Positions 1-19,188 of a stretch of DNA of 64,000 nt are shown in pieces. Under the pieces are notes generated by a model that saw only the letters and a program-made list of their open reading frames with translations, was not told the DNA's origin and ran no database searches. The position numbers and the translations under genes were made by a program. The stretch's first letter is position 1; every line of letters begins with the position of its first letter. The DNA comes from Cardiobacteriaceae bacterium (lineage in GTDB: Bacteria; Pseudomonadota; Gammaproteobacteria; Cardiobacteriales; Cardiobacteriaceae): assembly GCA_030529365.1 (NCBI GenBank), contig JAUMXB010000013.1:1-64000 (forward strand). The letters run 5' to 3'.

Positions 1-2
1 AC

Positions 3-155
3 GCCGACCGCAAAGCGCTCTACCAGGCCATTGCCAAAGCCAACAACCAACCGGGCTGGGCGGCACAAATCCAGGGCACCTTCGCCGAACGCTGGATCAG
101 CCAGGCACGCGGCGGCTGGTGGTATCAAAGCGGCGGCGCGTGGAAGCAGAAGTAA
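3..155 (+). CDS. YdbL/DUF1318-type periplasmic protein, 3' end only
   Basis: This is the last 50 codons of a gene that begins before the window, ending in TAA. The peptide contains ADRKALYQAIAKANNQPG and a Trp-rich end (ARGGWWYQSGGAWKQK). This matches the C-terminus of the YdbL (DUF1318) family, where a Y-x-x-I/L-A-x-x-N-N segment is followed by a G-x-W-x-x-K end. Such proteins are small, exported and usually sit beside ynbE and ydbH, which would lie to the left. The assignment rests on a short fragment. Confidence 0.6.
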   Translation, partial: ADRKALYQAIAKANNQPGWAAQIQGTFAERWISQARGGWWYQSGGAWKQK

Positions 156-213
156 CCTTTCAACCGCAGGGTGGGCTTTAGCTCGCCGTTGCGTACGCGA
201 TTCGCCGTATCCT

Positions 214-238
214 GTAGGTCGGCCACTTGGTGGCCGAC
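214..238 (+). repeat. GTAG-headed REP-like palindrome
   Basis: GTAG is followed by a 9-bp inverted repeat (GTCGGCCAC / GTGGCCGAC) with a 3-nt loop. It resembles the GTAG-headed hairpins near 28.1-28.7 kb and 48.2-48.8 kb, and probably belongs to the same REP-like family. Confidence 0.6.
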
Positions 239-321
239 AAGCCATGCCGAGCAAAGCAGGCGATGCCATCGGCTTGACCGTATCCGCGCTGTGCACCGCG
301 ACCAAAACCCACCGAATCCTC

Positions 322-1122
322 ATGCTTCCCACCCCCGAGCAACAGCAATTCATCGACACCCATTTTGGCGAAGGCGCACGTTACAGCCGCGCAGCCTTCG
401 CGCAATTGACGACAACTGCCGAGCTCCACTATCTCCTCACCAACCACAACTGGGATGACGATAATCGCGTCTTGCAGTGGATAGCCGAAAGCCCGCTGTG
501 CAGCCGTGCCACTGCCCTGGAAATGTTCTGGCTGGCGCAGCCCCAGGATTTTCAGGCGTATCCCCTGGGCAAAAAGCTGAAAAACCGCGCCGATGCTGAA
601 ACTTTCCATCTGCTGCAAACCTTGCTCACCCGCTATCCGCAGGGCTTTTATGCCGAAAGCGAGCGCCATTTCGACCCCAGCCCGCACTTTGCCCAACCCG
701 TCGCCATCCCTGCAAGCCTCTATCTGCCGAGCGCAGGCGAAGAACCGTATCTTTACTGGGATGCCGAGGAAATCAACTGCAAACCGGGCGGAGAATTCGT
801 CTCTGCCGTGCAGCGCTGCGACCGCATGGATTTGTACAACTTTGCCGTCCTCCTTGATGACCGCGAGCTGCTGGAAAACCACGCCCTGCTCCTGGCGCAT
901 CCGCTTTGCGATCGCGGCATTGCGCAACTGCTGTTTTGGCGCCTGCAAACCCGTTGGCCGATCAGCGGCGATCATCTCTTCCGCCGCGACTTTATCCGCG
1001 ACTGGCAAGCCGACCGCTGGCCACAAGCGCATATCGCCTATCATCCGCCCGCCCCATCTTCTCCTGAAGCGGCTAAAAAACCCGCCTGGCTCATCCCCGA
1101 CATTTTTTACCAACCCGTCTGA
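322..1122 (+). CDS. DUF4274 domain-containing protein
   Basis: The protein has 266 residues if started at the ATG that gives MLPTPEQQQF. The frame is open further upstream, but that extension runs through a REP-like repeat and is not protein-like. Around residues 33-75 the stretch ELHYLLTNHNWDDDNRVLQWI...PLCSRATALEMFWL carries the hallmarks of DUF4274: a YN/HNWDD block and a PLC-x-x-x-TAL-x-x-FW block. A related PLCDRGIAQLLFW motif recurs near residue 193, so the domain may be duplicated. No signal peptide or membrane segment is visible, so it is probably cytoplasmic. The biochemical function of the family is unknown. The next gene starts 3 bp after its stop codon, suggesting co-transcription. 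Confidence 0.75.
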   Translation: MLPTPEQQQFIDTHFGEGARYSRAAFAQLTTTAELHYLLTNHNWDDDNRVLQWIAESPLCSRATALEMFWLAQPQDFQAYPLGKKLKNRADAETFHLLQTLLTRYPQGFYAESERHFDPSPHFAQPVAIPASLYLPSAGEEPYLYWDAEEINCKPGGEFVSAVQRCDRMDLYNFAVLLDDRELLENHALLLAHPLCDRGIAQLLFWRLQTRWPISGDHLFRRDFIRDWQADRWPQAHIAYHPPAPSSPEAAKKPAWLIPDIFYQPV

Positions 1123-1125
1123 CCC

Positions 1126-1899
1126 ATGCACAACATCCTCGTCTTCGATATCGAAACCGTCGCCGATACCGCCGGTTACCGCCTGCTCCATCCCGAACTC
1201 GCCGCCCTTTCCGATGCCGACGTGCTCGCCATCATGCAGAACGAGCGCTTGGCCGACAGCGGCAGCACCTTCATGCGCCATCATTTGCAGAAAATCGCTG
1301 CCATCTCGGTGGCCTTCAAGCATGGCGAGCAATTTGCGCTGTGGACCCTTGGCGAAGAAGCGAGCGACGAGGCCGAACTCATCCGCCGCTTCTTCCAGGG
1401 CATCGACAAATATTCGCCCACTTTGGTGAGCTGGAACGGCAGCGGCTTTGATTTGCCGGTGCTGCAATACCGCGCCCTCATCCACGGCATCGACGCGCAG
1501 CGCTATTTCGAGATCGGCGACGACGACCGCGATTTCCGCTACAACAACTACCTCTCCCGCTTCCATTGGCGCCATATCGACATGATGGACGTGCTATCCG
1601 GCTTCCAGCCGCGCAGCGTGGCGAGCCTGAACGACATCGCCGTGCTCTGCGGCCTGCCCGGCAAACTCGGCATCGACGGCAGCGCCGTGCAGGGGCTGTA
1701 TGATGCAGGCGATCTGGCGCGCATCCGCGCCTACTGCGAAACCGACGTGATGACCACCTATCTGCTGTATCTGCGCTTCGAGCGCTTGCGCGGCAATCTC
1801 AGCGCCAAGCAGCTCGCGGCGGAAAACGCGAAAATCCGCGACTGGCTTGAGGAAAAAACCGATGCGCATTGGCAGGAATATCTCGCCGCGTGGCCATGA
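1126..1899 (+). CDS. PolB-like predicted 3'-5' exonuclease
   Basis: This 257-residue protein carries a DEDDy exonuclease signature: D8 and E10 in FDIET (ExoI), D109 in SWNGSGFDLP (ExoII), and Y203/D207 in YCETD (ExoIII). All the metal-binding residues are in place. The layout matches the stand-alone exonucleases related to the proofreading domain of family-B DNA polymerase (the PF10108-type group). The expected activity is Mg-dependent removal of nucleotides from 3' ends, with a role in DNA or RNA processing that cannot be told from sequence. It follows the DUF4274 gene by 3 bp and is probably in the same operon. Confidence 0.85.
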   Translation: MHNILVFDIETVADTAGYRLLHPELAALSDADVLAIMQNERLADSGSTFMRHHLQKIAAISVAFKHGEQFALWTLGEEASDEAELIRRFFQGIDKYSPTLVSWNGSGFDLPVLQYRALIHGIDAQRYFEIGDDDRDFRYNNYLSRFHWRHIDMMDVLSGFQPRSVASLNDIAVLCGLPGKLGIDGSAVQGLYDAGDLARIRAYCETDVMTTYLLYLRFERLRGNLSAKQLAAENAKIRDWLEEKTDAHWQEYLAAWP

Positions 1900-1940
1900 T
1901 GCCGTCACCGTTGTCTTGATATTGCATTTCAGGAGCTTAT

Positions 1941-2705
1941 ATGCAGTCTTTTTATTCCCCGAGCGCGCAGTGCCATATCCGTTTTCACGATTTGCCCGGC
2001 CACGGTCTGCCCTGCGTCTTCGTGCACGGGCTGGGCTGCGCCTCGTCCTATGAATATCCGCGCGTGGTCATTGACACGGCATGGCAGGGCAGGCGCGCCA
2101 TCCTCCTCGACCGCCCCGGCAGCGGCTTCAGCGACTGGCCAGAAGATTTTTCCTACACCACATCAGCGCAGGCGCAAGTCATCGTCGAACTGATCGAACA
2201 TCTCGGCTTGCAACACTTTGCCCTCTATGGACACAGCATGGGCGGCAGCATTGCTATCGAAGCGGCAAGCCTGATGCCGGAACGCATCGCCGCCCTGCTG
2301 GTGTCGGAATGCAATTTCCATGCGGGCGGTGGCTTTTTCAGCCAGCAAATCGTCGCGCAAGGCGAAGCCGAGTTCGTGGCGCACGGACATACGCAGATGG
2401 TCACCGCAGACGGCACGCCGTGGGCAGGCTGCTTGCAGCGCAGTGCACCTTGGGCGGTATGGCGTGCGGCGAAAAGCCTGGTGGAAGGCGTCTCCCCTTC
2501 CTGGATGGAACGCTTCCTCGCCCTGGATGCCCCGCGTCTTTTCATCGTCGGCGAACACAGCCTACCGGACGACGACATCGCGTTTTTCGCCGCGCGCGGG
2601 ATTGAAAGCGCCATCGTTCCCGCCACCGGACACAGCATGTCGTGGGAAAATCCGCATGGTCTTGCGGGCGTTCTCTCGGCATGGTTGCAGAAAGCGGGCG
2701 TTTGA
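1941..2705 (+). CDS. alpha/beta-fold hydrolase
   Basis: This 254-residue alpha/beta hydrolase has an oxyanion HG at residues 29-30 (FVHGLG), a nucleophile elbow GHSMGG with Ser99, and a C-terminal GH with His231 as the catalytic base. The acid is probably one of the acidic residues in GEHSLPDDD near 205-212. An AGGAG ribosome site (caggagctt) lies just before the ATG. There is no signal peptide, so it is cytoplasmic. The substrate cannot be inferred; an esterase, a thioesterase or a lipid-related hydrolase are all possible. An AAGCGCTT element begins about 55 bp after the stop. Confidence 0.8.
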   Translation: MQSFYSPSAQCHIRFHDLPGHGLPCVFVHGLGCASSYEYPRVVIDTAWQGRRAILLDRPGSGFSDWPEDFSYTTSAQAQVIVELIEHLGLQHFALYGHSMGGSIAIEAASLMPERIAALLVSECNFHAGGGFFSQQIVAQGEAEFVAHGHTQMVTADGTPWAGCLQRSAPWAVWRAAKSLVEGVSPSWMERFLALDAPRLFIVGEHSLPDDDIAFFAARGIESAIVPATGHSMSWENPHGLAGVLSAWLQKAGV

Positions 2706-2761
2706 GGCGCTGTTGCACCATTTCTACGATCCTTTCCCGACCGGAGACGCTTTTCGAGAAA

Positions 2762-2854
2762 TAGGCGATAAAAAATTACTATTCTAAGCGCTTATCATAG
2801 TGATTTTTTACCGCAGTAAGCGCTTATTGATGGTAAAAAACAACCATTTTTATG
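2762..2854. repeat. AAGCGCTT palindromic element, paired copy (L1)
   Basis: Two AAGCGCTT cores at 2786-2793 and 2818-2825 lie 32 bp apart, flanked by T-rich left arms (gattttttaccg) and A-rich right arms (tggtaaaaaacaac). The right edge reaches the first codons of the LysE-type gene. Confidence 0.85.
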
Positions 2855-3454
2855 CAAAATATGGATACATCTTTGCTGCTTGCGCTTGCGCAAACCCTTT
2901 TCCCTTTCGTGATCAGCCCGGGCGCAAGTTTCGTGCTCACGCTGTCCGCAAGCACGGCAGGCGTGCCTTTTGCCGCGCTGAAAGTGTGGGCGGGTACGGC
3001 GCTGGGTTTGGCTGTGCTGGCGGTGGCAAGCGCGCTCGGCGTTGCCCGGCTGGTGTTGCATTATCCGCTGTTGCAAACGCTGCTGGCGATGATCGGCGGC
3101 GCCTTGCTGGTTTTCTGGGGCGTGCGCCTTTGCCAGCATTCGCCCGCACAGGCAGAGCGACCCTTGCCGCCGCGGCTCGTGGCGAGCGCGTTCACGATAG
3201 TGGTCAGCAATATCAAGGCGATTACGCTCTATGTGGTGCTGCTGCCCGCCCTGTTGCACAGCGTTGATCCATTCACCTTTTATGCGCACGCGCTGGGGCT
3301 GCATGCCGCGATGCTGCTCGCGTGGCTGCTGCTGGTGAGCCTTGGTTTGCGTCATCTGCCGCATCTGGCCGCGTTGCGCCATGGGCTGCTGAAGGCAAGC
3401 GGCCTTTTCATGATCTGGCTCGGCGGCAAAAGCCTGTTGTCCGTATGGGAATGA
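2852..3454 (+). CDS. LysE/RhtB-type transporter
   Basis: A hydrophobic protein of about 200 residues with around six membrane segments. It has a PGASF motif after the first helix, equivalent to the PGP motif of LysE/RhtB amino-acid exporters, and an SNIKAITLYVVLLP segment corresponding to the NPK motif region. The family exports amino acids or related small molecules across the inner membrane; the substrate here is unknown. Either the ATG at 2852 or the one at 2861 could be the start, and neither has a good Shine-Dalgarno because the palindromic element runs up to the gene. That placement could influence expression. Confidence 0.75.
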   Translation: MQNMDTSLLLALAQTLFPFVISPGASFVLTLSASTAGVPFAALKVWAGTALGLAVLAVASALGVARLVLHYPLLQTLLAMIGGALLVFWGVRLCQHSPAQAERPLPPRLVASAFTIVVSNIKAITLYVVLLPALLHSVDPFTFYAHALGLHAAMLLAWLLLVSLGLRHLPHLAALRHGLLKASGLFMIWLGGKSLLSVWE

Positions 3455-3497
3455 GATATCGGGAGCGCTTCGCCATTCAATCTTGCCATAACAGCAA

Positions 3498-3541
3498 AGC
3501 GCAACCTGCCGGGCAATCAAGGGATTGTGGCAGGTTGCGCT
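3498..3541. terminator. strong hairpin between convergent genes
   Basis: A perfect 13-bp stem (agcgcaacctgcc / ggcaggttgcgct) with an 18-nt loop lies between the converging LysE-type and binding-protein genes. No T-run follows on either strand, so a bidirectional transcription-end role is inferred from position only. Confidence 0.45.
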
Positions 3542-3571
3542 GTCATGCACAGGTTGAAAAGTGGTGCCGCC

Positions 3572-4537
3572 TCAGCCAAACAGGCTTGCGTCAGGCGCGG
3601 CACCGCCGACGATCTTGGGATTGAGCTGATACATTTCGTTCAGGAATTGCAGGATTTCCGCACTGATATCTTTAGTGCGAACAGCGGTCAGCGCTGAATG
3701 CGGGAAGGCCTGCTCCAGCGCGGGGACGGGAGCGGGCATGTAGTTGGCAGCGATTTCTGCTGCACTTTTCGGGTGTGCCGCCACCCAGTCAACGGCCTTG
3801 AGCAGGTCTTCATCCAGCGCGGCGAGGAATTCGGCGTGGCTGCTGGCGATATTTTCCGAAACCATCAGGCCGGCTTGCGGGATGCCGTTCTGGCTGCCAA
3901 AGCTGCTGTCCCAGACTTTATCCAGGGAGATACCGCGCGTAACCTGCACACCGGACTGCTTGCCGCGCAGGATGGAAGCACTTGCCAGCGGCTCGGGGAG
4001 CAGTGCGTTGGGGAAATCCTTTTGCAGGAAGAGGAGTACGGCTTCCGGTGGCGTGGCGGTGTAGCTGACCAGGCCGTCGAGCGAGACGCCGCTGCGTTTG
4101 GCAAGAATTTGCAGCACAAGATCGGGCATGTCGTTCTTGAATGGCATGACGATCTTCTGCCCGGCGAGCTGCTCGATGCTGCTGATGACCTGCCCCTTGC
4201 TCATGAGGGCAAGCAGCCCCCGCGTCATGATGTTGTGCAGGATGACGGGCTGGCCCTGCGCACGCAGGTTGGCTGCAACATAGCTGGGCACGATGCTGAT
4301 TTCGATGCTGCGGTTGAGCAGACCGGCACGCAGGTGATCCGGCGTGCGCCAGCTTTGCACCCGGAAGGGGCGGATTTTCCGGGCGTTGCCGATCTGTGCG
4401 GCAATGGCCAGCAGCACGGTTGGCGTTACCGGAGGCCCCCACAGGGTCAGGGTATCGTCGGCCCGCAAGGGCAATGCGCTGGCAGCTCCGGCGAGCGCGC
4501 CCATGCGCAGCAGATGGCGGCGGGTAAGATGCATCAT
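3572..4537 (-). CDS. ABC-type substrate-binding protein with Tat signal
   Basis: About 321 residues. The N-terminus TRRHLLRMGALAGAASALPLRA resembles a twin-arginine signal with a hydrophobic core and an A-x-A-like end, so export to the periplasm is likely. The body looks like a periplasmic binding protein of the NMT1/SsuA type (PFRVQSWRTPDHLRAGLLNRSIEISIVPSYVAANL; GQKIVMPFKNDMPDLVLQIL). It lies 12 bp downstream of the TonB-type receptor gene, so the pair is probably one operon for uptake of one compound. No cognate permease or ATPase is nearby. The ligand is unknown. The start may be either of two adjacent ATGs. Confidence 0.75.
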   Translation of the reverse strand: MMHLTRRHLLRMGALAGAASALPLRADDTLTLWGPPVTPTVLLAIAAQIGNARKIRPFRVQSWRTPDHLRAGLLNRSIEISIVPSYVAANLRAQGQPVILHNIMTRGLLALMSKGQVISSIEQLAGQKIVMPFKNDMPDLVLQILAKRSGVSLDGLVSYTATPPEAVLLFLQKDFPNALLPEPLASASILRGKQSGVQVTRGISLDKVWDSSFGSQNGIPQAGLMVSENIASSHAEFLAALDEDLLKAVDWVAAHPKSAAEIAANYMPAPVPALEQAFPHSALTAVRTKDISAEILQFLNEMYQLNPKIVGGAAPDASLFG

Positions 4538-4549
4538 GAGGTGTCTCCG

Positions 4550-6433
4550 TTAGAAATTGAAGTGGAAGCCCAGCCAGTAGGTGCGCTCGGGTGCGCCCAC
4601 GGCGCGGGTGCTCTGTGCGGCGATGTGCGGCTGCTCGTTGAAGGCGTAGTACTGGCGGTCAAAGAGGTTGTTGACGCCAAGGGTGAGCGCAAAGCGGTCG
4701 CGGGTTTGCAGGCCGGCATAGAGATTGACCGTGGCGTAGCTTTGATGGTTCAGGGGATTGTCCAGCCCCAGACCGCGTTTTTTGTCGCTGTCCAGTCTGC
4801 TGTTTCTGTGGGAATAATGCAGGCTGGCGCCCAGGTTGTAGCTGCCGAATTCGGCATAATCGCGATAATCCACGGCAATGTCGGCACTCATGGGACGCAC
4901 GTTGTACAACGCGCGCTTGTCGGTGTCGTTTTCTCCATACTGGTAGCGAATCTTGCCGCGCACGGCGAGATTGTCCGTGAGACTTTTGGCCGCGCTCAAC
5001 TCCGCACCGATCAGGGTGGCATCCACGTTGCGGCTGATGATGTTGCTGTCTGCCTGCAAGATGCCAGGCTGCCGGCGGGCACGATCCAGCGTGATGAAAT
5101 TGCTGACTTTGTCATAGTCGGCCTGGGCCTCGATTTTCCAGGCGCCGGCCAGATCGCCATGCGCAACCTTGCCATAATCCCGGTAGCCTTCTCCCTGCCA
5201 GCTGCCTTGCAGGCTGATGCGGTTATGGCGTTCCGGCTTCAGGAAGGGGTTGCCGATCCAGCCCGCCCCGTTTTCACCCGGCAGGGCATGGAAGCGCTCG
5301 GTGTTGTCAGGCTGGCGCAGCAGGCTGTCAACACTTACCCGATAGCTTTGCCGTTCGCTGGGCTGGAAGCGGTAGCTCAGGGCAATGCCGAAGCCGTCGG
5401 TCTTTTGCTTGCCCGCAAGCTTGCGTCCGTAATATTTCTGCCAAAGCTGGGCTGGCGCGGGGAAGGTGTTGTTGCCAATCCTGGCCGGCGTGTTTTTAGC
5501 GCGGGGATCAGCACGCAGCACGTCATAGCTCAGGCCGCCACTCAGCTGGTGCGCCGGGGTGATATCCCAGAAATGGTCATAAAAAAGATGCATGCGGTCG
5601 CTGTGGATATCAGGGAAGCGGTAGGCATTGCGCTTTTTCCCCTGCGGCGTGAAGACGAAACGGCTGGCCAGATGCTGGTCATGCCCGTAGGTCAGGCCGA
5701 ATTGCGAGCGCTGCTCGCCATAATGGAGACGGTAATCGGCATTGAGCGTGGTCATTTGCCGTTCGATTTCCATGCCTACGCGCGGTTGTCCTGCTGCCGG
5801 GCGACGCAGGCTGTGGTTGTCGGCAGCGCGTTCCAGATCCACATGGCGCACGTTGAAATTGAAGGTATTGCTTTGATCCTGTGCGCCGATGCGTGCCGTA
5901 CCGTTCAGGACGATGCGCCGGGTGCTCTTGGCATCGAGCTGGAAATGCGGCTGCCTGTCGTCATCGATGCGGTCGTGAATCACGCCCAGACGGTATTCTT
6001 GCCGCGCATCCGGCACCAGGCCGGCCACTACGGCCTGGCCATTGCGCAAATAGCCTGCATTGACCGTCTTTCCGTTGCCATCCTTGTAGCTGTTGAGATT
6101 ATGGCGATAGGCGTGGCCAACGACATAGGCATTGCTGCCACGGAAACGGAACAGGGCACGCTCGCCATCGCTGTAGGGATTGGCTTGCAGGCCAATCAGC
6201 ACGGGTCGGCTCGTCACGCTGCCCACATCCTGCGCCACCGATGCATCTGCCCACGGACGCAGATAATCAAACTGGTTTTCCACCGGCATGGTGAAATCGG
6301 TTTGCGGCGTGATGACTGGCGGCGGGCCGAAGGAAAGCTGCATCTTGTATGCTTCGGCGGAAGCCAGGTTGACTCCCTCTTCCGCATGAAGCGTGGAGAT
6401 GATCAAAGCGGGCAGGAAATAGCGGACGCGCAT
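4550..6433 (-). CDS. TonB-dependent copper-receptor-like outer-membrane protein with most of the plug missing
   Basis: 627 residues ending in YWLGFHFNF, the aromatic C-terminus of outer-membrane barrels. A short signal-like N-terminus is followed by a barrel whose segments (SYKDGNGKTVNAGYLR; a DNHSLR block) recall the OprC/NosA copper-receptor family. The N-terminal plug is strongly shortened. After FDYLRPW (near residue 57), where the plug would start, the sequence passes almost directly into the first barrel strands. There is no RG...LLDG segment, no ERIEVLRGP-type segment and no GGVINI-type segment. About 75 residues of plug core appear absent compared with my recollection of the family. 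The product could be a plugless channel, a decaying receptor or a divergent receptor. Confidence 0.75.
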   Translation of the reverse strand: MRVRYFLPALIISTLHAEEGVNLASAEAYKMQLSFGPPPVITPQTDFTMPVENQFDYLRPWADASVAQDVGSVTSRPVLIGLQANPYSDGERALFRFRGSNAYVVGHAYRHNLNSYKDGNGKTVNAGYLRNGQAVVAGLVPDARQEYRLGVIHDRIDDDRQPHFQLDAKSTRRIVLNGTARIGAQDQSNTFNFNVRHVDLERAADNHSLRRPAAGQPRVGMEIERQMTTLNADYRLHYGEQRSQFGLTYGHDQHLASRFVFTPQGKKRNAYRFPDIHSDRMHLFYDHFWDITPAHQLSGGLSYDVLRADPRAKNTPARIGNNTFPAPAQLWQKYYGRKLAGKQKTDGFGIALSYRFQPSERQSYRVSVDSLLRQPDNTERFHALPGENGAGWIGNPFLKPERHNRISLQGSWQGEGYRDYGKVAHGDLAGAWKIEAQADYDKVSNFITLDRARRQPGILQADSNIISRNVDATLIGAELSAAKSLTDNLAVRGKIRYQYGENDTDKRALYNVRPMSADIAVDYRDYAEFGSYNLGASLHYSHRNSRLDSDKKRGLGLDNPLNHQSYATVNLYAGLQTRDRFALTLGVNNLFDRQYYAFNEQPHIAAQSTRAVGAPERTYWLGFHFNF

Positions 6434-6814
6434 GACAAAACCCTCATCATTTGTAAATGTGCGCGGATAGTAATTATTATCTTTTCCCGTGTCCAGATGC
6501 CTAGGTCAAGTGCATATATATCATATTGAAAATCATAAATATATTTGCAAAAATCACCCATATGGAAGACTGTGATACTGCCGGCTGCGCACTTTGTCAG
6601 CATTAATGCACAGGATTTTGCATTGCACGATACGGCGCTTCAGGGCATCTTCCGATTCTCCTGCCCGCCACGCAGGAATCATTCAACACCCATTTCCTGG
6701 CAGCTCCCTGTTCAATAGACCATCCTGCTGACGCAAGAATTTTCCGCCAGCGCTGGCGATGGGGTTTTGCCCGCAACCCTGCTAGAATCCCGCCTCCGCC
6801 CCGAGAGCATTCCG
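6434..6814. other. intergenic region upstream of the receptor and the DUF1820 gene
   Basis: This 381-bp divergent spacer is AT-rich next to the receptor gene, and I see no credible gene in it. It holds the imperfect palindrome noted at 6466-6481. It presumably contains promoters for both flanking genes. Confidence 0.6.
6466..6481. promoter_or_regulatory. AT-rich imperfect palindrome upstream of the receptor gene
   Basis: gatagTAATTAttatc is a 16-bp imperfect dyad about 33 bp before the receptor start codon. It looks like an operator and partly resembles a degenerate Fur box, but it matches the Fur consensus too poorly to be named. Confidence 0.3.
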
Positions 6815-7126
6815 ATGAGCAAGCCCACGATTTACCGCGTCCAGTTCAAAACCGACAGCCACCATTACGATCTTTATGTCCGCCATGTCTATCCTTCCGA
6901 CATGCACGGCTTCGTCTGCCTGGAAGACTTTCTTTTTCATGAGGAAAGCCGCGTGCTGATCGATCCGCGCACGGAAAAGCTCCATGCCGAATTCGGCGAC
7001 GTGACCACCGCGTTCATTCCCTATCACCAAATCATCCGCATCGATCAGGTCAGCCGCGAAGGCGACAGCCGCATCCAGCCGGCAAGCGGCGGCAGCGGCA
7101 ACAAGATCACGCCGTTCCCGCAATAA
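6815..7126 (+). CDS. DUF1820 family protein
   Basis: 103 residues starting at MSKPTIYRVQF. The pattern YRVQF...YDLYVRHVYPSDMHGFVCLEDFLF...VIDP..EKL..EF..V...IPYHQIIRIDQV matches the DUF1820 family of small gammaproteobacterial proteins. It is soluble and probably cytoplasmic; the function is not known. The C-terminal 20 residues are low-complexity (GGSGNK). The ATG was chosen because homology begins there; the open frame upstream is non-coding in character. It converges on the DUF2798 gene. Confidence 0.8.
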   Translation: MSKPTIYRVQFKTDSHHYDLYVRHVYPSDMHGFVCLEDFLFHEESRVLIDPRTEKLHAEFGDVTTAFIPYHQIIRIDQVSREGDSRIQPASGGSGNKITPFPQ

Positions 7127-7146
7127 TGGCGGCACGGGTCGGCTAC

Positions 7147-7377
7147 TCAGGATCCGGTCGTCCAGCGCGTCAGCCTCATCACCAGCGGGCGCACCGTCAG
7201 CAGGCTCACAAAGGCAATCGGCCAGGCCAGCGCGTAAGAACGCAGGGTGCGAGGCAGCCATTCGCTGTTCACGCCATTATTGAGCGCCACCAGCACCGCG
7301 CTCATGATGAAAGCCATCATCATGGTGGCGTAGAAAGTGAAAACGATGGGGGCGAATTTGGCCGGAATTTTGCTCAT
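7147..7377 (-). CDS. DUF2798 family small membrane protein
   Basis: 76 residues starting at MSKIPAKFAPIVF, with two hydrophobic segments (about residues 9-31 and 44-64) separated by a short loop (NNGVNSEWLPRTLRSYALAW). This is the two-helix architecture of DUF2798 inner-membrane proteins, whose function is unknown. I chose the internal ATG because the longer frame upstream reads into an AAGCGCTT palindromic element. Confidence 0.75.
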   Translation of the reverse strand: MSKIPAKFAPIVFTFYATMMMAFIMSAVLVALNNGVNSEWLPRTLRSYALAWPIAFVSLLTVRPLVMRLTRWTTGS

Positions 7378-7399
7378 GCTTGTTAACAACATCGATATG

Positions 7400-7490
7400 A
7401 TAAATTTTCTCACCAATAAGCGCTTACCATGCAAAAATTTCTCGCAATAAGCGCTTATATTTGGTAAAAAATAACTATTTTTGCAGTTTT
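7400..7490. repeat. AAGCGCTT palindromic element, paired copy (L2)
   Basis: Cores at 7418-7425 and 7449-7456 are 31 bp apart, with aaaaattt between them and ggtaaaaaataac on the right edge. The element fills the space between the DUF2798 gene and the lipoprotein gene. Confidence 0.85.
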
Positions 7491-7496
7491 TATGAA

Positions 7497-7676
7497 TTAA
7501 TTGCCAGTGTGCGCGCTGATGCCGACGCTGCCATAGGCCTGCGTTTGCCCGCCAGCGTTGGTGATGCCGATGGTGTTGTGGCGCGCGGGATCGTTCTGCT
7601 CGAAGCGGTAGGTCACATCATGGTTGCCGCCGCAGGCCGCGAGCAGCAGGGCGAAGGTTGCGAGCGCGATTTTCAT
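7497..7676 (-). CDS. small lipoprotein
   Basis: 59 residues: MKIALATFALLLAACGG..., a typical lipoprotein signal with lipobox LAAC (Cys15). The mature peptide is only about 45 residues (NHDVTYRFEQNDPARHNTIGITNAGGQTQAYGSVGISAHTGN) and belongs to no family I recognise. A gagttt purine stretch lies upstream of the ATG as a modest ribosome site. It sits 65 bp downstream of the CDP-alcohol phosphotransferase-like gene on the same strand. Confidence 0.65.
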   Translation of the reverse strand: MKIALATFALLLAACGGNHDVTYRFEQNDPARHNTIGITNAGGQTQAYGSVGISAHTGN

Positions 7677-7741
7677 AACAAACTCCACGGAAAAGAGCGG
7701 ACAGCATAGTGCAGTTTGCCGGGCAATGTCACGGGCAAATA

Positions 7742-8335
7742 TCAGGCCAACCCCCTGCGTACCCGCTGCCAACAAGTCATGACCAGAAGCACGACGAGTA
7801 TCCACATCACGACGGCGAACCACGCCGGCAACGGTGCGAAAAGCGCGTGGCACAAGGCGAGCACTCCCATCGCAAAGGCACGGTCGCTTTTGCCCAGCGG
7901 ACCATCGTAGCGGCGGCCATTGCCATACACTTGCCCGAGCGCGCCGCACATTTCCGAAAGCGTCGCGAAAAAAATGAAAAGCCCGGCGGCAAGCGGCGAA
8001 AAAGGTGCGACAAAGGCAAAGGGCAGATAGAGCGCGGCATCCGCCACCACATCGGTGATTTCATTGAGATAGCCGCCGAGGCGCGATTGCTGGCCGAATT
8101 CGCGCGCGAGCATGCCGTTCATCGCATTCAACGCCATGCGCACGAACATCCACAGCGGCAGCATAATGAAAAGCCATGATTTTGCGGCAAGAACTGTGAG
8201 CAACACGCCAAGCGCCACGGACACGGCACAGGCAAACAACGTCACCTGATTGGCGGTGATGCCGCGCGCGTGCAGCTTGCGCACCGTGGGGCGCAGCAAG
8301 TTCTGGAAGCGGGGTTTGAAATCATAGATGCTCAT
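7742..8335 (-). CDS. CDP-alcohol phosphatidyltransferase-like membrane protein (YnbA-like)
   Basis: 197 residues, polytopic. The region RMALNAMNGMLAREFGQQSRLGGYLNEITDVVADAALYLPF aligns with the CDP-alcohol phosphatidyltransferase motif D-x2-D-G-x2-A-R-x8-G-x3-D-x3-D. The first two acidic positions are Asn here (N..NG) and the third is Asn as well, leaving only the last Asp. My recollection of E. coli YnbA is NALDGMLAR, with one motif Asp retained. If the Asn substitutions are real, classical two-metal catalysis is doubtful. Family members make phospholipid headgroup transfers at the inner membrane. A GAGAGCAAG ribosome site precedes the ATG. Confidence 0.75.
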   Translation of the reverse strand: MSIYDFKPRFQNLLRPTVRKLHARGITANQVTLFACAVSVALGVLLTVLAAKSWLFIMLPLWMFVRMALNAMNGMLAREFGQQSRLGGYLNEITDVVADAALYLPFAFVAPFSPLAAGLFIFFATLSEMCGALGQVYGNGRRYDGPLGKSDRAFAMGVLALCHALFAPLPAWFAVVMWILVVLLVMTCWQRVRRGLA

Positions 8336-8343
8336 CTTGCTCT

Positions 8344-8400
8344 CAAAAATATCGGTTTTTTGCCAGCATGAAGCGCTTGTCGCGATAAAAAACGTCTATA
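8344..8400. repeat. AAGCGCTT palindromic element, single degenerate copy (L3)
   Basis: One core at 8371-8378 with degenerate arms (atcggttttttgccagcatg / tcgcgataaaaaac). It lies between the DUF2238 gene and the CDP-alcohol phosphotransferase-like gene. Confidence 0.65.
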
Positions 8401-8403
8401 ACA

Positions 8404-9045
8404 TCAGGAAACATAATCCATCTTCCGGTCAGGCCGCACCACGAGATAGATGGCGAGCGCGGTGAGCGCGCCCAGCGTATCGGCGAGAATATCCTTCTGC
8501 GCATCCCAGATGTCGCCCTGCGAGCCGAGAAATTCGATGCCGGCGTCGCCCCCTTCGATCACCGCATATTGCCATTCGATGATTTCGTAAGCGCCAGCCA
8601 CGCTCATGATGAAAAAGAGCGCAAAGAAAAAGGCGAGCTTCGGGCCGCAGAGCTTGCGGCGCAACAGCCATTCCATCATCGGATAGCTGTAGAAGCCGAT
8701 GATGTAGTGGGCGAGGCGGTCGTAATGGTTGCGGTCCTCGCCGAGGATGGGCGTGAGCAGGCGGTTGCCCCATTCGAAAGGCACGTTGGCGAAAGTGTAG
8801 TGCGCGCCGACGAGGTGCATGAGTAGCCACAGGCTCATCAGAAAATAGGCGAGATTGCTGAAACGGAAGCGCGGATAGGTGATGACGAGCGCGGCAAAGA
8901 CGGCAAAAATCGGAATGACTTCCGCCCACCACACGGCGCGATCGAAAGGCGCGATGCCCGACCAGACGGCCACGGCAGCGATGAAGACGGCCAGCGCGGC
9001 AGGAAAGGCATGGGATTCACGATGATTCATAAAGCCAGCGTCCAT
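8404..9045 (-). CDS. DUF2238 (YjdF-like) membrane protein
   Basis: 213 residues with about six membrane helices. Diagnostic parts are MHLVGAHYTFANVPF, DRNHYDRLAHYIIGFYSYP, EIIEWQ and SQGDIWDAQKDILADTLGAL. His, Asp and Glu residues lie within helices, as in DUF2238/YjdF inner-membrane proteins. The family function is unknown; the conserved polar residues in the membrane suggest metal or lipid chemistry. The start is uncertain between the first ATG and an ATG five codons later. Confidence 0.8.
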   Translation of the reverse strand: MDAGFMNHRESHAFPAALAVFIAAVAVWSGIAPFDRAVWWAEVIPIFAVFAALVITYPRFRFSNLAYFLMSLWLLMHLVGAHYTFANVPFEWGNRLLTPILGEDRNHYDRLAHYIIGFYSYPMMEWLLRRKLCGPKLAFFFALFFIMSVAGAYEIIEWQYAVIEGGDAGIEFLGSQGDIWDAQKDILADTLGALTALAIYLVVRPDRKMDYVS

Positions 9046-9184
9046 GGAAAATATTCGCGGCTTTTTATCACGTCCGCACCGGCAAGGGGGATTTTTTTCC
9101 GTCCGCGCAGATTGGGCATACTCGCCGTTGCGCAGCGATTGCGGGATTTCGCCTGCTGCGTCCCGTAAAACCAGGAAGCGCTTC

Positions 9185-9370
9185 TAGAGCATTTTTGATT
9201 CATCTAATAGCAGGATTTGCTGAGGAAAGGATGTGGAAAGCTTTGTTTCTGCCCTCACCCCAACCCCAATCTCGCTTCGCGAGCTCTGACGAGTCCCACG
9301 GGATTCGAAGAACTCGCGAAGCGAGATTGGGGCTTTGAATTCTGTTCACATTTGAGTCAAAAACGCTCTA
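9185..9370 (+). mobile_element. MITE-like element, copy 1 (182 bp plus TA on both sides)
   Basis: The element starts GAGCATTTTTGATTCA and ends with the near inverse TGAGTCAAAAACGCTC, flanked by TA on both sides, as for IS630/Tc1-type insertion. Internally it has a long stem (ccaatctcgcttcgcgag / ctcgcgaagcgagattgg). There is no coding capacity. A second copy in the opposite orientation lies at 54998-55176. Confidence 0.75.
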
Positions 9371-9612
9371 GTACCCGCAGGGCAAATCCTATCGGCATCG
9401 CTTTGCGAAGCCGCAGGTCGATATTGGTTTGCTGTCGGCTATCCATGGCCGGGCACTCACAAAAATCGCTGCGCGACGGTGGGTTCCGCTTCCCATAAAA
9501 ATGCGTTCGCATTTTTATGGGTACCCGGACAACATCCACCCTACGGAAAATGTGCGTCGTAGCTGGCAAACCTATCCCGTGCGGCGGCTCAGCTGAAGCC
9601 CACTTTTTATTC

Positions 9613-9690
9613 ATAAAAATTGCAAATATGGTTATTTTTTACCACAAATAAGCGCTTATTGTGGTAAAAATGATGATACATTGCTTCAAT
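9613..9690. repeat. AAGCGCTT palindromic element, single copy (L5)
   Basis: Single core at 9650-9657 inside a nearly perfect inverted repeat: ttttttaccacaaataagcg against cgcttattgtggtaaaaa, differing by one base. Left edge tgcaaatatggtta. It sits immediately 3' of truD. Confidence 0.85.
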
Positions 9691-9698
9691 ATACGTTT

Positions 9699-10700
9699 TT
9701 ATGCCGTTTCGCCGCTTGCACTGGCGGGGCGGCTGGCGTCTTGCACGGCAAAGAGCGCGTCGAGCAGGGTGGTGGCAAAGGCGCCGGCGGGGAGGATGAA
9801 GTCGAGGACAAGGGTGGCGTCGTCCTGCCATTGCCATTGCACGTCGCGGGCGCGCAGCCACATGGGGCGCCAGTCACTTTCGGCATGCGCCTGCAAATAG
9901 GCGAGCATCGCCGCTTCTTCGGCGAGAATGGGGGCGCGGATGGCACCGGCTTCGCCAGCGAGCGGCACTTCGCCTTTGCCTGCGAGCCAGCCGCCGGGGG
10001 CGATGTCGCCGCTTTGTGCGCGAGCGCGCAGGGCATCATCCACGGCTTCGACGGCAAAATGGCTGTGGCTGCCGGCAAGCATGGCGCGATCGCCGGAGAG
10101 GATTTCACGGGCACGCTCGCCGCGCACTTCAAGTTCGCAGTTGAAAAGCCAGGCGCGCAGCACGGAGAGCACACGGCCGCGTTCGTCATGCTTTTTCGGC
10201 AGGACGCCGCGCGCGACCCATTCGCGCGCCCAGGCGAGGTTGTCGCGGCCGAAGCGCTGCACGCCGAAGGCATTGGCAAAGCCTTGGTCGCGCAGATCGG
10301 CGAGGGCGCTGTCGATGGCGGCGCGTTCGCCCTGCACATCGCGCAAGGTGAGCACGAAGCGGTTTGCGCGGTGGGTGCCGATGCGCAACTTTTTCTGGTG
10401 GCGCTGGTATTCCAGGATGCGCCAGCCGTCGCCGCAAGACGGCAGGGCATCGCGGTATTTCCACGGCAGCGACAGCCATTGTTCGGTAACGGCGTGGCGG
10501 TCCTTCAGGCCGCTGTGGGCGATGTCGCGTTCCGGGCAGCCGCTCGCGCGGGCGATGTCCTTTTTCAGCCAGGCGGTGTTCATGGCGGTTTTTTCCACGC
10601 GCAGCCAGAGATGCTCGCCATCGCCGCTCCACGGGATGTTCATGATTTCGAAGACTTTGAAATCGGCAGGCTGGGTGCGGATGGTGGCATGGGCTTTCAT
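9699..10700 (-). CDS. truD: tRNA pseudouridine(13) synthase TruD
   Basis: 333 residues. The TruD family signature is present: GLKDRHAVTEQ with catalytic Asp67, and NAFGVQRFGRDN near residue 140. The N-terminus carries the expected PADFKVFEI segment. The enzyme isomerises U13 in tRNA-Glu. The start codon overlaps the stop of the upstream dehydrogenase gene by 4 bp (ATGA), so translation is probably coupled. The gene ends about 9 bp from a palindromic AAGCGCTT element. Confidence 0.93.
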   Translation of the reverse strand: MKAHATIRTQPADFKVFEIMNIPWSGDGEHLWLRVEKTAMNTAWLKKDIARASGCPERDIAHSGLKDRHAVTEQWLSLPWKYRDALPSCGDGWRILEYQRHQKKLRIGTHRANRFVLTLRDVQGERAAIDSALADLRDQGFANAFGVQRFGRDNLAWAREWVARGVLPKKHDERGRVLSVLRAWLFNCELEVRGERAREILSGDRAMLAGSHSHFAVEAVDDALRARAQSGDIAPGGWLAGKGEVPLAGEAGAIRAPILAEEAAMLAYLQAHAESDWRPMWLRARDVQWQWQDDATLVLDFILPAGAFATTLLDALFAVQDASRPASASGETA

Positions 10701-12844
10701 GGGGCGTTTCCGGCAAGCTGGTTCAGGAAAAGTTCGCGTTCGCGCGCGAGCGTCATGCTGAGCGAGAGCATGGGGGTGGCGCTGTCGGCGGCAAAGAGGG
10801 TGAGCATGCGCCGGTAGAGTTCGGGATCGCGCAGGGTATCGGCGCGCGCGGCCAGAAGGGAGAGCGCTTCTGCCGACAAGGCGGGCTGCGGCACGCGGTA
10901 GCTGCGCGGCAGCCGGGCGTTCAGCCAGGAATGGGCGAGGTCGCTGGTCATTTGCGGCAACACGGCGCGGTTCATGACGAACATGTCCTGGGCGCGGGCG
11001 AGGCCGAGTTCGCGCATGCGGTGCACGCCGATGCCGCCCTGCTTGTTGATGAGGTGGGCGAGCACGGCATGGATTTGCTCGAGGTGCACGGTGAGGGTGA
11101 GGGAAGGCAGGCGGCGCAGCCATTCAAAGGCGATAGCGCCGAACGGCAGCAGGCCTTGCGCAGGCGCGGCAAGATGGCAACGCAGGTCCATGTCGCTGAT
11201 GATGCGGTCGGCCTGCATGAGGATGGCGCAGCCGCTGTCGTGCACATCGCCGGTTATCGAGGCGAGCACGGGGCGGGGCAGCATGCGCAGTTCCATGAGC
11301 AGGCGGCTGAGGGCGGCACTTTCTTCGGCCACCTCTTGCGGCGCGCTGTGGTGCAGTTGCCGCCAGTCGTGAGCATGGCCGAAGGTTTCGCCGCGGTGAT
11401 AGAGGAGGAGCATGCGGTGCTCCTGCTTGGCATCGGTGCAAATGGTGGCAAGCTCGTCGAGGGTTTGCCGGTCGAGGGCAAGGCGGGTGTGCCTCGGCTG
11501 CCAGATGAGCAGGCCTTCCTGGTAACGCCAGCTGCTGCTGTTGCGCAAATCGCGCCATTGCCGGCTTTTGTCGGCAAAGGGGTTGGGCAGCTGGCGGGCG
11601 TCGCTGTCTTCGCTGTTGCGCCGCCCTTTGAGGCTTTTCAGCACGGAGGGCGGATTGCCCAGGGTTTTCAGCACTTTTTTCGGGTTGAATGCCAGCAGCA
11701 GCTGGTGCGGCTGTACCTGCCAGGCAAGGCCATGGCGCACGAGGATGTCAAGCGCTTCCGGCGGAAGGGCCAGTTCCCGGCTGACGTGGGCAAGCGCTGT
11801 CCAGATGTCGCCCAGCCAGGCGCAGACGAAGCGCGCATGTGCATGGTCGAGGCTTGCCAGCGCGGCCCAGTCGTAGGCGCGGAAGGCGGAGAGCGTCATG
11901 TCGTCCGGCGCTGCCGCATGGTATGCCGGCGCGGTTGCGTTGTCTCCGGCAAACAGGCCGCCGGCAAAGGCGCGGGCATTGCCGTGGCGCTCCGCCATGC
12001 TGGCAATCCACGGCGGCAGGGTGATTTTGTCGCCCCACAGGGCATAGTCGCTGGCTGGCGTGCGGGCGTGGATGTCACAGAAGCGCTGCCAGCCAATGCG
12101 GTCAAGCAGGCCGATCAGGCCGCCATCGTAGCGGCCGCAGACGAGCGCGGTGAGGCTTGCCACGTCTTCCAGCGGCAGCGCCAGATGGGCGGCATGGTGA
12201 AAAGCGCTGGTGACGGCGAGCACCTGAAAACGGTTGGCGGCGAAGTTGTCGCTGTCGGGCACGACGACGATTTCCGCACCGAGCAGGTCGCGAAAAAAGC
12301 CCTGCACACGCTCTTGCGTGCGCGGCTCGGTGCGCGAGGCGGGAATGAGTTCGATGGCACGCTGGAAGCGCGGCGGGCGGAAAAAGTGGGCGCCGAGGAA
12401 ACGCGGCCGACAACCGGCAGGCAGGCATTGGGCAATGGCTTCCACTGACAGCCCGCCGCTGATGGAGAGGATGACGGCATCGCGTTGCAGGCCGGGGGCT
12501 ATGCGGCTCAGGATACCCTGCTTGACGGCCAGGTCGTCGCCCGCGCATTCAATGACGAGATCGTGCTCGGCCAGCATCGACCAGTGATCGCGATAATTGC
12601 GCGCATCCATGAGCGATGCCGCTTCCTGTCCGGCAAACGGCAGGGGGCGCATTTGCAGCAGCGCGGTTATCGCGGCCTGCGCGCGGGCATTGGGCGCGTC
12701 GGCGCCGGCCCTGTCGTACAGGCGCACACGCACGCCGGCATCGGCAAAACGCGCGGCAATCAGCGCGCCCATCGGCGTCGCGCCGAGAATGGCGGGGCGC
12801 TGAAAGGTAAATGCCTGGGTGCTTGCCGCTTCGGGTCGGTTCAT
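10697..12844 (-). CDS. 3-hydroxyacyl-CoA dehydrogenase / enoyl-CoA hydratase-like fusion
   Basis: 715 residues. The N-terminal half is an NAD-binding hydroxyacyl-CoA dehydrogenase: ILGATPMGALIA (about 19-30) as the dinucleotide fold, IECAGDDLAVKQ as the family IE-block, a GAHFFRPP segment with the catalytic His near 150, and NRF near 205. The C-terminal third looks like a crotonase fold (LLLYHRGETFG; PVLASITGDVHDSGCAILMQADRII) but lacks the usual GGG oxyanion-loop pattern and obvious Glu pairs. Hydratase activity is therefore uncertain. The order (dehydrogenase first) is like B. subtilis FadN rather than E. coli FadB. It overlaps truD by 4 bp. A GAGGAAA ribosome site precedes the ATG. Confidence 0.8.
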   Translation of the reverse strand: MNRPEAASTQAFTFQRPAILGATPMGALIAARFADAGVRVRLYDRAGADAPNARAQAAITALLQMRPLPFAGQEAASLMDARNYRDHWSMLAEHDLVIECAGDDLAVKQGILSRIAPGLQRDAVILSISGGLSVEAIAQCLPAGCRPRFLGAHFFRPPRFQRAIELIPASRTEPRTQERVQGFFRDLLGAEIVVVPDSDNFAANRFQVLAVTSAFHHAAHLALPLEDVASLTALVCGRYDGGLIGLLDRIGWQRFCDIHARTPASDYALWGDKITLPPWIASMAERHGNARAFAGGLFAGDNATAPAYHAAAPDDMTLSAFRAYDWAALASLDHAHARFVCAWLGDIWTALAHVSRELALPPEALDILVRHGLAWQVQPHQLLLAFNPKKVLKTLGNPPSVLKSLKGRRNSEDSDARQLPNPFADKSRQWRDLRNSSSWRYQEGLLIWQPRHTRLALDRQTLDELATICTDAKQEHRMLLLYHRGETFGHAHDWRQLHHSAPQEVAEESAALSRLLMELRMLPRPVLASITGDVHDSGCAILMQADRIISDMDLRCHLAAPAQGLLPFGAIAFEWLRRLPSLTLTVHLEQIHAVLAHLINKQGGIGVHRMRELGLARAQDMFVMNRAVLPQMTSDLAHSWLNARLPRSYRVPQPALSAEALSLLAARADTLRDPELYRRMLTLFAADSATPMLSLSMTLARERELFLNQLAGNAP

Positions 12845-15565: not shown

Positions 15566-16546
15566 ATGAAAGCACCCGTTCGCGTAACCATCACCGGCGC
15601 CGCCGGCAATATCGGCTATGCCATGGCCTTCCGCATTGCCGCTGGCGACATGCTCGGCCCTGACCAGCCCGTCATCCTGCAATTGCTGGAAATCACCCCG
15701 GCGCTCGGCGCGCTCGAAGGCGTCGTCATGGAATTGAAAGACTGCGCCTTCCCGCTCCTCAAAGACATCATCGCCACTGACGACCTCGCCACCGCCTTCA
15801 AGGATACCGATTATGCCCTGCTCGTTGGCGCCCGTCCGCGCGGCCCCGGCATGGAGCGCAAGGATCTCCTCGAAGCGAACGGCGCCATCTTCGGCCCGCA
15901 AGGCAAAGCGCTCAATGACCACGCCTCGCGCAACGTCAAAGTGCTCGTCGTCGGCAACCCCGCGAACACCAACGCCCTCATCGCCCAGGCCAGCGCCCCC
16001 GATCTCGACCCGCGCAACTTCACCGCGATGACCCGCCTCGACCACAACCGGGCGCTGTCGCAGCTCGCCGACAAGACCGGCAGCCACACCACCGCCATCC
16101 GCAAGATGACCATCTGGGGCAACCACTCCTCCACCCAATACCCGGACATCAGCAACGCCACCGTTGACGGCAAGGCCGCCGCCGGTTTGGTTGATGAGGC
16201 TTGGTATAAAGACACCTTCATCCCCGACGTCCAGCAACGCGGCGCCGCCATCATCAAGGCACGCGGCGCATCTTCCGCTGCTTCTGCCGCCTCTGCTGCC
16301 ATTGACCACATGCGCAGCTGGGCGCTCGGCACCGACGGCGACGACTGGGTCAGCATGGCAGTCCCCTCCGACGGCTCCTACGGCATCGCCCCCGGCATCA
16401 TCTACTCCTACCCCTGCCGCTGCAAAAACGGCAGCTACGAAATCGTGCAGGGCCTGGAAGTCAGCGCCTTCAGCCGCGAGAAAATGGACGCCACCGACCG
16501 CGAACTGCGCGAAGAACGCGCCGCCGTCGAGCATCTGCTGAAATAA
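15566..16546 (+). CDS. mdh: malate dehydrogenase
   Basis: 326 residues. NAD-binding GAAGNIG is at 11-17, followed by the LLEI-type end of the second strand. The active-site loop carries [14 protein letters not shown], with two Arg for malate binding, then [20 protein letters not shown] (substrate Arg and Asp) and the catalytic His in [11 protein letters not shown]. This is the type-2 cytosolic-like malate dehydrogenase group. It interconverts malate and oxaloacetate in the TCA cycle. The ATG at 15566 was preferred because GGAG lies 9 bp before it; the ATG at 15551 overlaps that ribosome site. A clean terminator follows. Confidence 0.95.
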
Positions 16547-16560
16547 GCCCCCAATAAAAA

Positions 16561-16590
16561 GAGACCTTGCCTGCAAGGTCTCTTTTTTTA
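16561..16590 (+). terminator. intrinsic terminator of mdh
   Basis: A 10-bp perfect stem (gagaccttgc / gcaaggtctc) with a 2-nt gap is followed by eight T residues, 14 bp after the mdh stop codon. Confidence 0.92.
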
Positions 16591-16591
16591 C

Positions 16592-16662
16592 AAAAATATC
16601 AAAAATAATTATTTTTTACCATCATAAAGCGCTTATCATGCAAAAAATTCTCACACAAAGCA
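16592..16662. repeat. AAGCGCTT palindromic element (L7), at the 5' end of the GNAT gene
   Basis: Intact core at 16627-16634; a degenerate second core (acaaagca) lies at the usual 31-bp offset. The inter-core sequence atcatgcaaaaaattctcaca matches that of L12 apart from one base. Confidence 0.75.
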
Positions 16663-17142
16663 CAACTCCTCGCCCTGCAACAGGCATTTGACGCCCGCGG
16701 CATCATCCTCGCCGCTGGTGCCATCAACCGCTTCCCCGACTACGAAAGCTGGCTCGCCTTCTGTCAGGCGCCCGCTGGCAGCCTTCGCCCGGACGGCTAC
16801 CGCAAAGTGGCAGATTCCACCTTCATCGCCTGGGACGACAGCGCACAACGCCTGCGCGGCATCATCCAAATCCGCCACACCCTCAACGACTTCCTGCGCG
16901 AATACGGCGGCCACATCGGCTACTCCGTCCACCCCGACGACTGGGGCAAAGGCCATGCCACCCACATGCTCGCCCTCGCCCTGCAACACTGCGACACCCT
17001 CGGCATCCGCGACATCCTCATCACCTGCGACCCCGACAACATCGCCTCCGCCCGCGTCATCGAAAAAAACGGCGGCATCTACGACAAAACCGTCACCGTC
17101 GCCGGCCGCCCGGTCAAACACTACTGGATCACCCGCCCCTAA
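16645..17142 (+). CDS. GNAT-family N-acetyltransferase, 5' end abnormal
   Basis: The open frame encodes a GNAT protein of about 165 residues: QQAFDARGIILAAGAINRFPDYESWLAF..., GGHIGYSVHPDDWGKGHATHMLALAL (acetyl-CoA-binding motif A) and DNIASARVIEKNGG (motif B). It lacks the usual first strand and helix. No ATG, GTG or TTG lies in frame before GTG 16804, which would remove a third of the domain; only CTG 16672 is available. The ATG at 16638 belongs to the palindromic element and is out of frame by one base. The gene probably lost its 5' end to the element, or a one-base error joins that ATG to the frame. The substrate is unknown. Confidence 0.6.
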   Translation, partial: KFSHKAQLLALQQAFDARGIILAAGAINRFPDYESWLAFCQAPAGSLRPDGYRKVADSTFIAWDDSAQRLRGIIQIRHTLNDFLREYGGHIGYSVHPDDWGKGHATHMLALALQHCDTLGIRDILITCDPDNIASARVIEKNGGIYDKTVTVAGRPVKHYWITRP

Positions 17143-17207
17143 CGGCCTATGCCATTTTTCCCGCCAAGCGGCTATATTGCCCACCCGCAAACCTTTTGGA
17201 GAACCCC

Positions 17208-17822
17208 ATGCACCTCTACCTAAGCCCCACCTCGCCCTACGGCCGCCTCATCCTCGTCGGCGCCCTGAACGCCGGCATCCGCGACATCGCCCTCACCTTC
17301 GTTGACCCGTGGAGCAATCCCGCCGAACTCGAAGCGAAAAACCCCTTCTCGCAAATCCCCACCCTCGTCACCCGCGACGGCCATGTGCTCTACGACAGCT
17401 TCATCATCGCCGACCATCTTCTCGACCACCCCATCCGCGGCGGGCAAGCCGCAGCAACGCTTGCCTACGCGCGCATATTGCTCGAGCAAACCGTCAAATA
17501 TTTCTCCCTGAACCGCGCCAAACCCGAGCGCGGCGAAACGCACCCGCATATCGCCCGTGCCCGCGACGCCGTCATCCGCGCCCTGCCGCGCGCGCCGCAA
17601 CTCAGGGCAGACAGCCGCGATTTCGCGCAACTCGCGCTCGGCTGCGCCCTCTCCTACCTCAAACTGCGCCTGCCGGAACTCGCCGAGCAATATCTCTCTG
17701 CCGACAACCAGCGCGCACTCGCCGCCTTTGCCCAACGCGCCGACATCGCCGCCACCGCCCCGGAAGCGCTGGAAAGCCGCCCCAGCAACATCAATAACAT
17801 ATTTGCAAAAATCGGCAAATAA
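17208..17822 (+). CDS. glutathione S-transferase family protein
   Basis: 204 residues. A thioredoxin-like N-terminal domain (MHLYLSPTSPYGRLILVGAL; NPFSQIPTLVTRDGHVLYDSFIIADHL) contains the cis-Pro of QIPTL and the D-S pair that binds the glutathione gamma-glutamyl group. An all-helical C-terminal domain follows. The SPTSPYGR start suggests a Ser-type active site. The ATG follows a GGAG ribosome site by 8 bp. The final codons (IFAKIGK, stop) lie in the edge of a palindromic element. The substrate is unknown. Confidence 0.85.
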   Translation: MHLYLSPTSPYGRLILVGALNAGIRDIALTFVDPWSNPAELEAKNPFSQIPTLVTRDGHVLYDSFIIADHLLDHPIRGGQAAATLAYARILLEQTVKYFSLNRAKPERGETHPHIARARDAVIRALPRAPQLRADSRDFAQLALGCALSYLKLRLPELAEQYLSADNQRALAAFAQRADIAATAPEALESRPSNINNIFAKIGK

Positions 17823-17912
17823 TAGTTATTATTTACCGCGATAAAGCGCTTGTTGTGAGAAATTTTCTTACAACAAGCGCTTCGAGATGAGAAAAAACCA
17901 TTATATTCTGGC
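17812..17912. repeat. AAGCGCTT palindromic element, paired copy (L8)
   Basis: Cores at 17844-17851 and 17875-17882 are 31 bp apart. The arms read gttatttaccgcg, tgtgagaaattttctta and gatgagaaaaaacc. The element lies between convergent GST and dusA genes and contains both stop codons in its edges. Confidence 0.85.
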
Positions 17913-18890: not shown

Positions 18891-19188
18891 GTTTTTTGGG
18901 ATGGTAGCAAGGGACGGATTATATGTCGTTTTTCGTGCTACTGTTGATGAAGGTAACTCTTTTTTCTTTGGAGCAAAACAAGTTTTCCATCATGTTTCAA
19001 CATCTTTTCTTCTTCGCGATTGCGCTTTACGGCCGCACGGCCGGTTTCAAAAACAGGAACACTTTCTTTGCGTCGCCAAAGGACGTGTTCCTGTTTTTGG
19101 AACCAAAGAAAGGCGCTCCCGCGTCTGCGGCTGCGCCCAAGGGGTTCTATGCACTATGTAGCCAAGATGGAACATCTATTCAGACGCA
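18891..19188. other. intergenic region with a large inverted repeat
   Basis: About 300 bp between dusA and fbpC without a credible gene. It contains 15-bp perfect arms caaaaacaggaacac (19048-19062) and gtgttcctgtttttg (19085-19099), plus an interleaved ctttctttg / caaagaaag pair. It is likely a structured dispersed repeat of unknown role. Confidence 0.6.

Follow-up and report, generated by a model that had tools for sequence, protein, structure and literature searches.

A conserved plugless barrel derived from TonB-dependent transporters and its linked periplasmic binding protein in Cardiobacteriaceae and other bacterial families

Two adjacent genes on the minus strand of the window (the whole analysed stretch of 64,000 nucleotides) encode an outer-membrane barrel protein of TonB-transporter ancestry and a periplasmic binding protein. 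The following features are considered.

4550..6433, minus strand: plugless TonB-transporter-derived outer-membrane barrel protein, 627 aa (open reading frame; PF00593 only; nine further full-length relatives; 22-strand AlphaFold2 model)
6383..6433, minus strand: putative signal peptide, about residues 1–17, read from the sequence, with an inferred cleavage site
6203..6382, minus strand: N-terminal tail in the place of the plug, about residues 18–77, with pLDDT <50 at residues 30–75
6305..6331, minus strand: conserved tail motif F35-x-P37-P38-x-x-I41-x-P43 (positions invariant in 10/10 proteins)
4553..6202, minus strand: barrel, residues 78–627, 22 predicted strands
5822..5830, minus strand: R202-x-A204 at the place of the OprC copper-ligand His-x-Met
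6468..6482, minus strand: Fur-box-like site upstream of the receptor, 11/14 positions of the consensus (p 0.08 for this site alone)
3572..4537, minus strand: twin-arginine-type NMT1/SsuA-like periplasmic binding protein, 321 aa, 12 bp downstream of the receptor (open reading frame, Pfam, NCBIfam, relatives)

The receptor frame is uninterrupted and ends in F, and its product matches PF00593 (TonB receptor barrel) at 55.1 bits with a cut-off of 27, so that the barrel, the C-terminal aromatic residue and the lack of a stop or frameshift described in the first-pass annotation all hold. TonB-dependent transporters are generally described as having a plug; the window protein shares with them the 22-strand C-terminal barrel, but not the PF07715 plug. 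Pfam lists PF07715 neither for the receptor, nor for any of ten close plugless proteins and four distant relatives; in a control with the same library it is found in all three plug-bearing OprC-like relatives. The closest NCBIfam model is TIGR01778 (TonB-copper), scoring 129.6 bits, far below the cut-off of 472.45, and the alignment starts only at profile position 142. Among the 52 TIGR01778 rows of the class, 51 begin at profile position 17 or earlier, the exception being one of the two halves of a gene broken across contigs. By column count, 71 residues precede the barrel in the receptor vs 153–155 in three plug-bearing relatives, hence about 80 are missing; the shortening reported earlier is real, while its extent is somewhat larger than the suggested 75 codons. 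The plug, described earlier as mostly missing, is absent, and a tail of about 60 residues stands instead; this tail is a different segment with no recognisable plug start, contrary to the suggestion that the beginning of a plug is fused to the first barrel strand.

The AlphaFold2 model built from 39 sequences has mean pLDDT 81.0 and pTM 0.82 (a 9-sequence model made first was poor, with pLDDT 63.7). Twenty-two main strands are counted between residues 78 and 625, pLDDT is below 50 at residues 1–21 and 30–75, and the latter segment contains no strand. The 28 best Foldseek matches of the model are OprC chains, and among the families in the VIA list OprC is the best match by VIA-align (Z 24.6, rmsd 2.6 Å, 507 aligned residues). 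With 22 strands modelled at this pLDDT and an OprC-like fold, the structure prediction proposed in the first-pass annotation yields a barrel that is complete by prediction, preceded by a disordered tail; the model is silent on whether the tail enters the lumen.

Plugless full-length receptors are present in Cardiobacterium hominis, C. valvarum, three other Cardiobacteriaceae genomes, three Pasteurellaceae, and one genome of another gammaproteobacterial family (G627). The records include C. hominis NCTC10426, C. valvarum NCTC13294, two Cardiobacteriaceae MAGs, a Lonepinella koalarum MAG, and Gallibacterium genomosp. 3. In a search of 40 genomes, matches in five other Cardiobacteriaceae extend from query residue 1, 1, 24, 9 or 24 to the end, with 40–66% identity to the window's receptor; counting the window's genome, full-length plugless receptors occur in six of 12 Cardiobacteriaceae genomes. 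The order-level search yielded six of 32 genomes, again with the window's genome included, all of them Cardiobacteriaceae, and in the family of the Gallibacterium genome G398 the receptor was found in 3 of 140 genomes. In the phylum sample, 14 of 398 genomes have a match at E<=1e-60: three are full-length and plugless (G000, G005, G627), four from one family of another class (G602, G609, G637, G708) also lack the plug, and the six read among the other seven, all but G547, carry CPNRMDPP plugs (that of G079 judged from the search row alone). In the class sample, 17 of 369 genomes matched; two of these have plugless receptors, and in the other 15 the receptor bears a plug or is split between contigs. 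The first-pass annotation would have been refuted by close relatives whose receptor at this locus has a complete plug; such relatives were looked for and not found, and the Cardiobacterium orthologues lack the plug too. A natural barrel derived from TonB-dependent transporters and devoid of the plug is conserved across several bacterial families. The four plugless receptors of the other class (L176, L177, L178, L179) have a different tail with an F-P-[DE]-hydrophobic motif, and in L176 and L177 a response-regulator gene adjoins the receptor.

In a barrel-only tree, all 14 plugless proteins, ten close and four distant, group in a single clade (100/99), and 35 plug-bearing OprC/NosA-like proteins lie opposite them, which, together with the best fold and sequence matches, bears out the earlier assignment of the barrel to the OprC/NosA-like group. 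As the tree is midpoint-rooted, plug loss is deduced not from the root, but from the presence of plugs in the wider family. In a first barrel tree, the outgroup TonB receptors sat on long branches and their placement was uncertain. In our preferred reading, the clade split off from OprC/NosA-like TonB-dependent transporters, its plug disappearing and its ligand chemistry being altered.

OprC/NosA receptors (TIGR01778) and the window protein share a homologous 22-strand barrel, but differ in the residues expected to bind copper. The copper ligands of OprC are reported to be two plug residues of a CxxxM motif, Cys143 and Met147, and two barrel residues, His323 and Met325 (PMC8610252). For comparison we used thirty TIGR01778-like proteins from the class, all aligned through the plug. 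The plug Cys column holds Cys in all thirty and a gap in 9/9 plugless proteins; the barrel pair is H-x-M in 30/30 and R-x-A in 9/9, the tenth plugless protein agreeing. In the four distant plugless proteins, the position of the His is occupied by L, I or V, and A or D stands near that of the Met; H-x-M is absent. Moreover, the plugless barrels contain on average fewer Met (6.1 vs 11.6 in plug-bearing proteins) and more His (21 vs 10.4, in the A7 barrel columns). As both the plug half and the barrel half of the copper site are gone in this alignment with copper receptors, proposed in the first-pass annotation, an OprC-type copper receptor is rejected, and copper handled in the OprC manner is an unlikely substrate judging from these residues.

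The gene 12 bp downstream of the receptor does encode a binding protein, as had been stated: it matches PF13379 (NMT1_2) with 26.5 bits at a cut-off of 24.7, while its TIGR01728 score is far below the cut-off. Its twin-arginine pair is invariant in 7/7 relatives, with PF10518 at 19.5 bits, under the cut-off of 22.7. The earlier description of this protein as an orphan does not hold. There is no permease among the listed window frames (positions 1–12000) or the four window proteins scanned with Pfam, but another contig of the same genome (C14 of G000) carries a second binder, an SsuC-like permease, an ATPase and NnrS at about 16130–20187 (L076 5131–9188). The same second set is also seen at L100 (G001) and L098 (G010), in genomes without a plugless receptor. 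NnrS (PF05940) scores 136.1, 166.4 and 165 bits at three Cardiobacteriaceae loci, with a cut-off of 28.

The binder lies directly downstream of the receptor in nine of ten close plugless cases. The C. valvarum receptor has no adjoining binder; the orthologue, 76% identical to that of the window, is encoded elsewhere in the genome. Next to this receptor, two similar genes, each of about 880 aa, lie in tandem (L034 2775–8203); by eye their products look like parallel beta-helices. At three Pasteurellaceae loci (L042, L043, L086) the receptor gene is followed by those for binder, permease and ATPase and then by a short frame resembling a part of NnrS; the two short Pasteurellaceae frames scanned have no Pfam hit. 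In G627 (L173) a small other frame separates the binder from the permease; receptor, binder, permease and ATPase otherwise succeed one another in the same way, with a NnrS match further on. More distant binder homologues in G162 and G192 adjoin plug-bearing receptors, and the G162 cluster also contains ferritin. The G192 cluster (L082 6281–12013) has the same gene types in the same order, receptor, binder, permease, ATPase and NnrS, but its receptor retains the plug and is nearest to the heme-receptor model TIGR01785, making it an apparent plug-using counterpart. Binder, permease and ATPase resemble NMT1/SsuA-type ABC importers (PF13379, TIGR01728), from which the present system differs by its association with an outer-membrane barrel and by the NnrS-like genes after it; no described system linking NnrS with a TonB receptor was found in the literature searched. 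No binder is present within the fetched flanks of the four distant plugless receptors. Strict co-evolution of receptor and binder was considered, as two binder classes separated by the A4 profile score fitted receptor presence perfectly, and rejected: since A4 was built from linked binders and the receptor-linked binders do not form one clade in the binder tree, this count is not used as proof.

Candidate Fur boxes are a further common feature. When 150 bp upstream are scanned, the strongest Fur-like match falls within 60 bp of the start in 9/9 receptors; of its 14 positions, all agree in Gallibacterium, 12 in three other receptors and 10–11 in the remaining five. The combined p of 4.5e-7 is favourable, as it assumes independent relatives and the 15-position form of the consensus was chosen after viewing the sequences; a first consensus of 19 positions gave mixed results. 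These boxes hint at iron, and taken together with NnrS and the ferritin of the related cluster they weakly suggest iron or N-oxide metabolism. The substrate may be iron- or N-oxide-related.

The best explanation of these observations, to which we give about an even chance based on sequence and model, is a channel that has no plug, probably works independently of TonB, and supplies an ABC importer via the periplasmic binder. The complete 22-strand barrel might stand open at all times, be constricted by extracellular loops, or have the N-terminal tail as a loose gate. The solute would cross the outer membrane with no need for TonB to pull on a plug. The neighbouring exported binder would catch the solute in the periplasm and pass it to the NMT1/SsuA-type permease and ATPase, and ATP use at the inner membrane would give the transport its direction. 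Conduction by the receptor, TonB independence and cooperation with the ABC importer are what we infer from the gene content and the architecture. The wider proposition, that an old clade spanning at least two proteobacterial classes constitutes such a TonB-independent 22-strand import channel, with binder and importer providing direction, we hold with slightly less than even confidence. Of the original idea of a plugless channel with a periplasmic binder, the architecture and the pairing prove to be conserved across families; the orphan status does not stand, and the barrel is no OprC-type copper receptor.

The main rival is that the tail folds back into the barrel as a mini-plug with a Ton box and is still pulled by TonB, so that the protein would have a reduced plug and remain dependent on TonB. 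As a free 22-strand pore could damage the barrier, a hidden gate is plausible. Six tail positions (F35, P37, P38, I41, P43, N53) are invariant in all ten close plugless proteins, hinting at a role for the tail, and in the distant group 75 mature residues precede the same barrel column, so that the tail is similarly long. The segment at the Ton-box-like site contains ITP in Cardiobacteriaceae (VITP in the window) and IPP or IAP in Pasteurellaceae and G627; the resulting PIPP or PIAP are, however, unlike Ton boxes. Moreover, residues 30–75 are those of low pLDDT and without strand. Still, PPVITP of the window resembles PSVVTGV, reported as the OprC Ton box (PMC8610252). On balance, we regard a TonB-driven tail as possible, though rather unlikely.

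The lumen could also be closed in trans, by the binder attaching on the periplasmic side or by some other protein serving as the plug. This agrees with conservation of the receptor–binder pair and with laboratory data on FpvA, where a separately expressed plug is reported to partly restore the plugless protein (PMC10994204). But the distant plugless group has no linked binder, and we found no detached plug: all but one of 44 PF07715 matches in nine receptor-bearing genomes are in frames of at least 654 aa, and the sole short one (192 aa) is the front of a frameshifted siderophore receptor split between plug and barrel (L108 1270–3297, G005). A separately encoded PF07715-type plug is thus rejected for these nine genomes. 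The window's genome has three PF00593 barrels and two plugs. Closure in trans therefore seems improbable.

Even less probable is that the barrel serves another purpose, such as adhesion or a surface decoy, or is decaying. The patchy distribution would fit this, as would a frameshift in the signal-peptide region of one MAG receptor (L004, around 1500), which may be a sequencing error or early decay. But the receptor is intact in nine of ten close plugless cases, and importer genes stand in order at four loci. Besides, in the barrel, third codon positions vary about twice as much as first and second ones between relatives: window vs C. hominis, 257 third-position changes vs 134 and 107 in 550 codons (in the tail, 29 vs 18 and 15 in 61 codons, the excess being less clear). 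Given this pattern of selection and the conserved relatives, a pseudogene is rejected. Finally, an assembly error, or a plug retained in close relatives, has nothing in its favour and a negligible probability, as independent genomes, including the named Cardiobacterium and Gallibacterium isolate records, share the plugless architecture.

In the literature searched we found no natural plugless TonB transporters, only laboratory, detergent-induced or unrelated cases. Laboratory plugless FpvA is likewise a barrel without a plug, but an engineered one, and is reported to be deficient in ferripyoverdine binding and uptake (PMC10994204). A conserved natural clade would allow one to test the purpose of the plug, the way a plugless 22-strand barrel is tolerated, and whether binding proteins can replace TonB energy. 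It may also provide animal-associated bacteria, Cardiobacterium among them, with a further route of uptake, which could be under iron control.

A 943-aa open frame (3698–6529, plus strand) runs antisense to the receptor and binder genes and is most likely an effect of codon usage.
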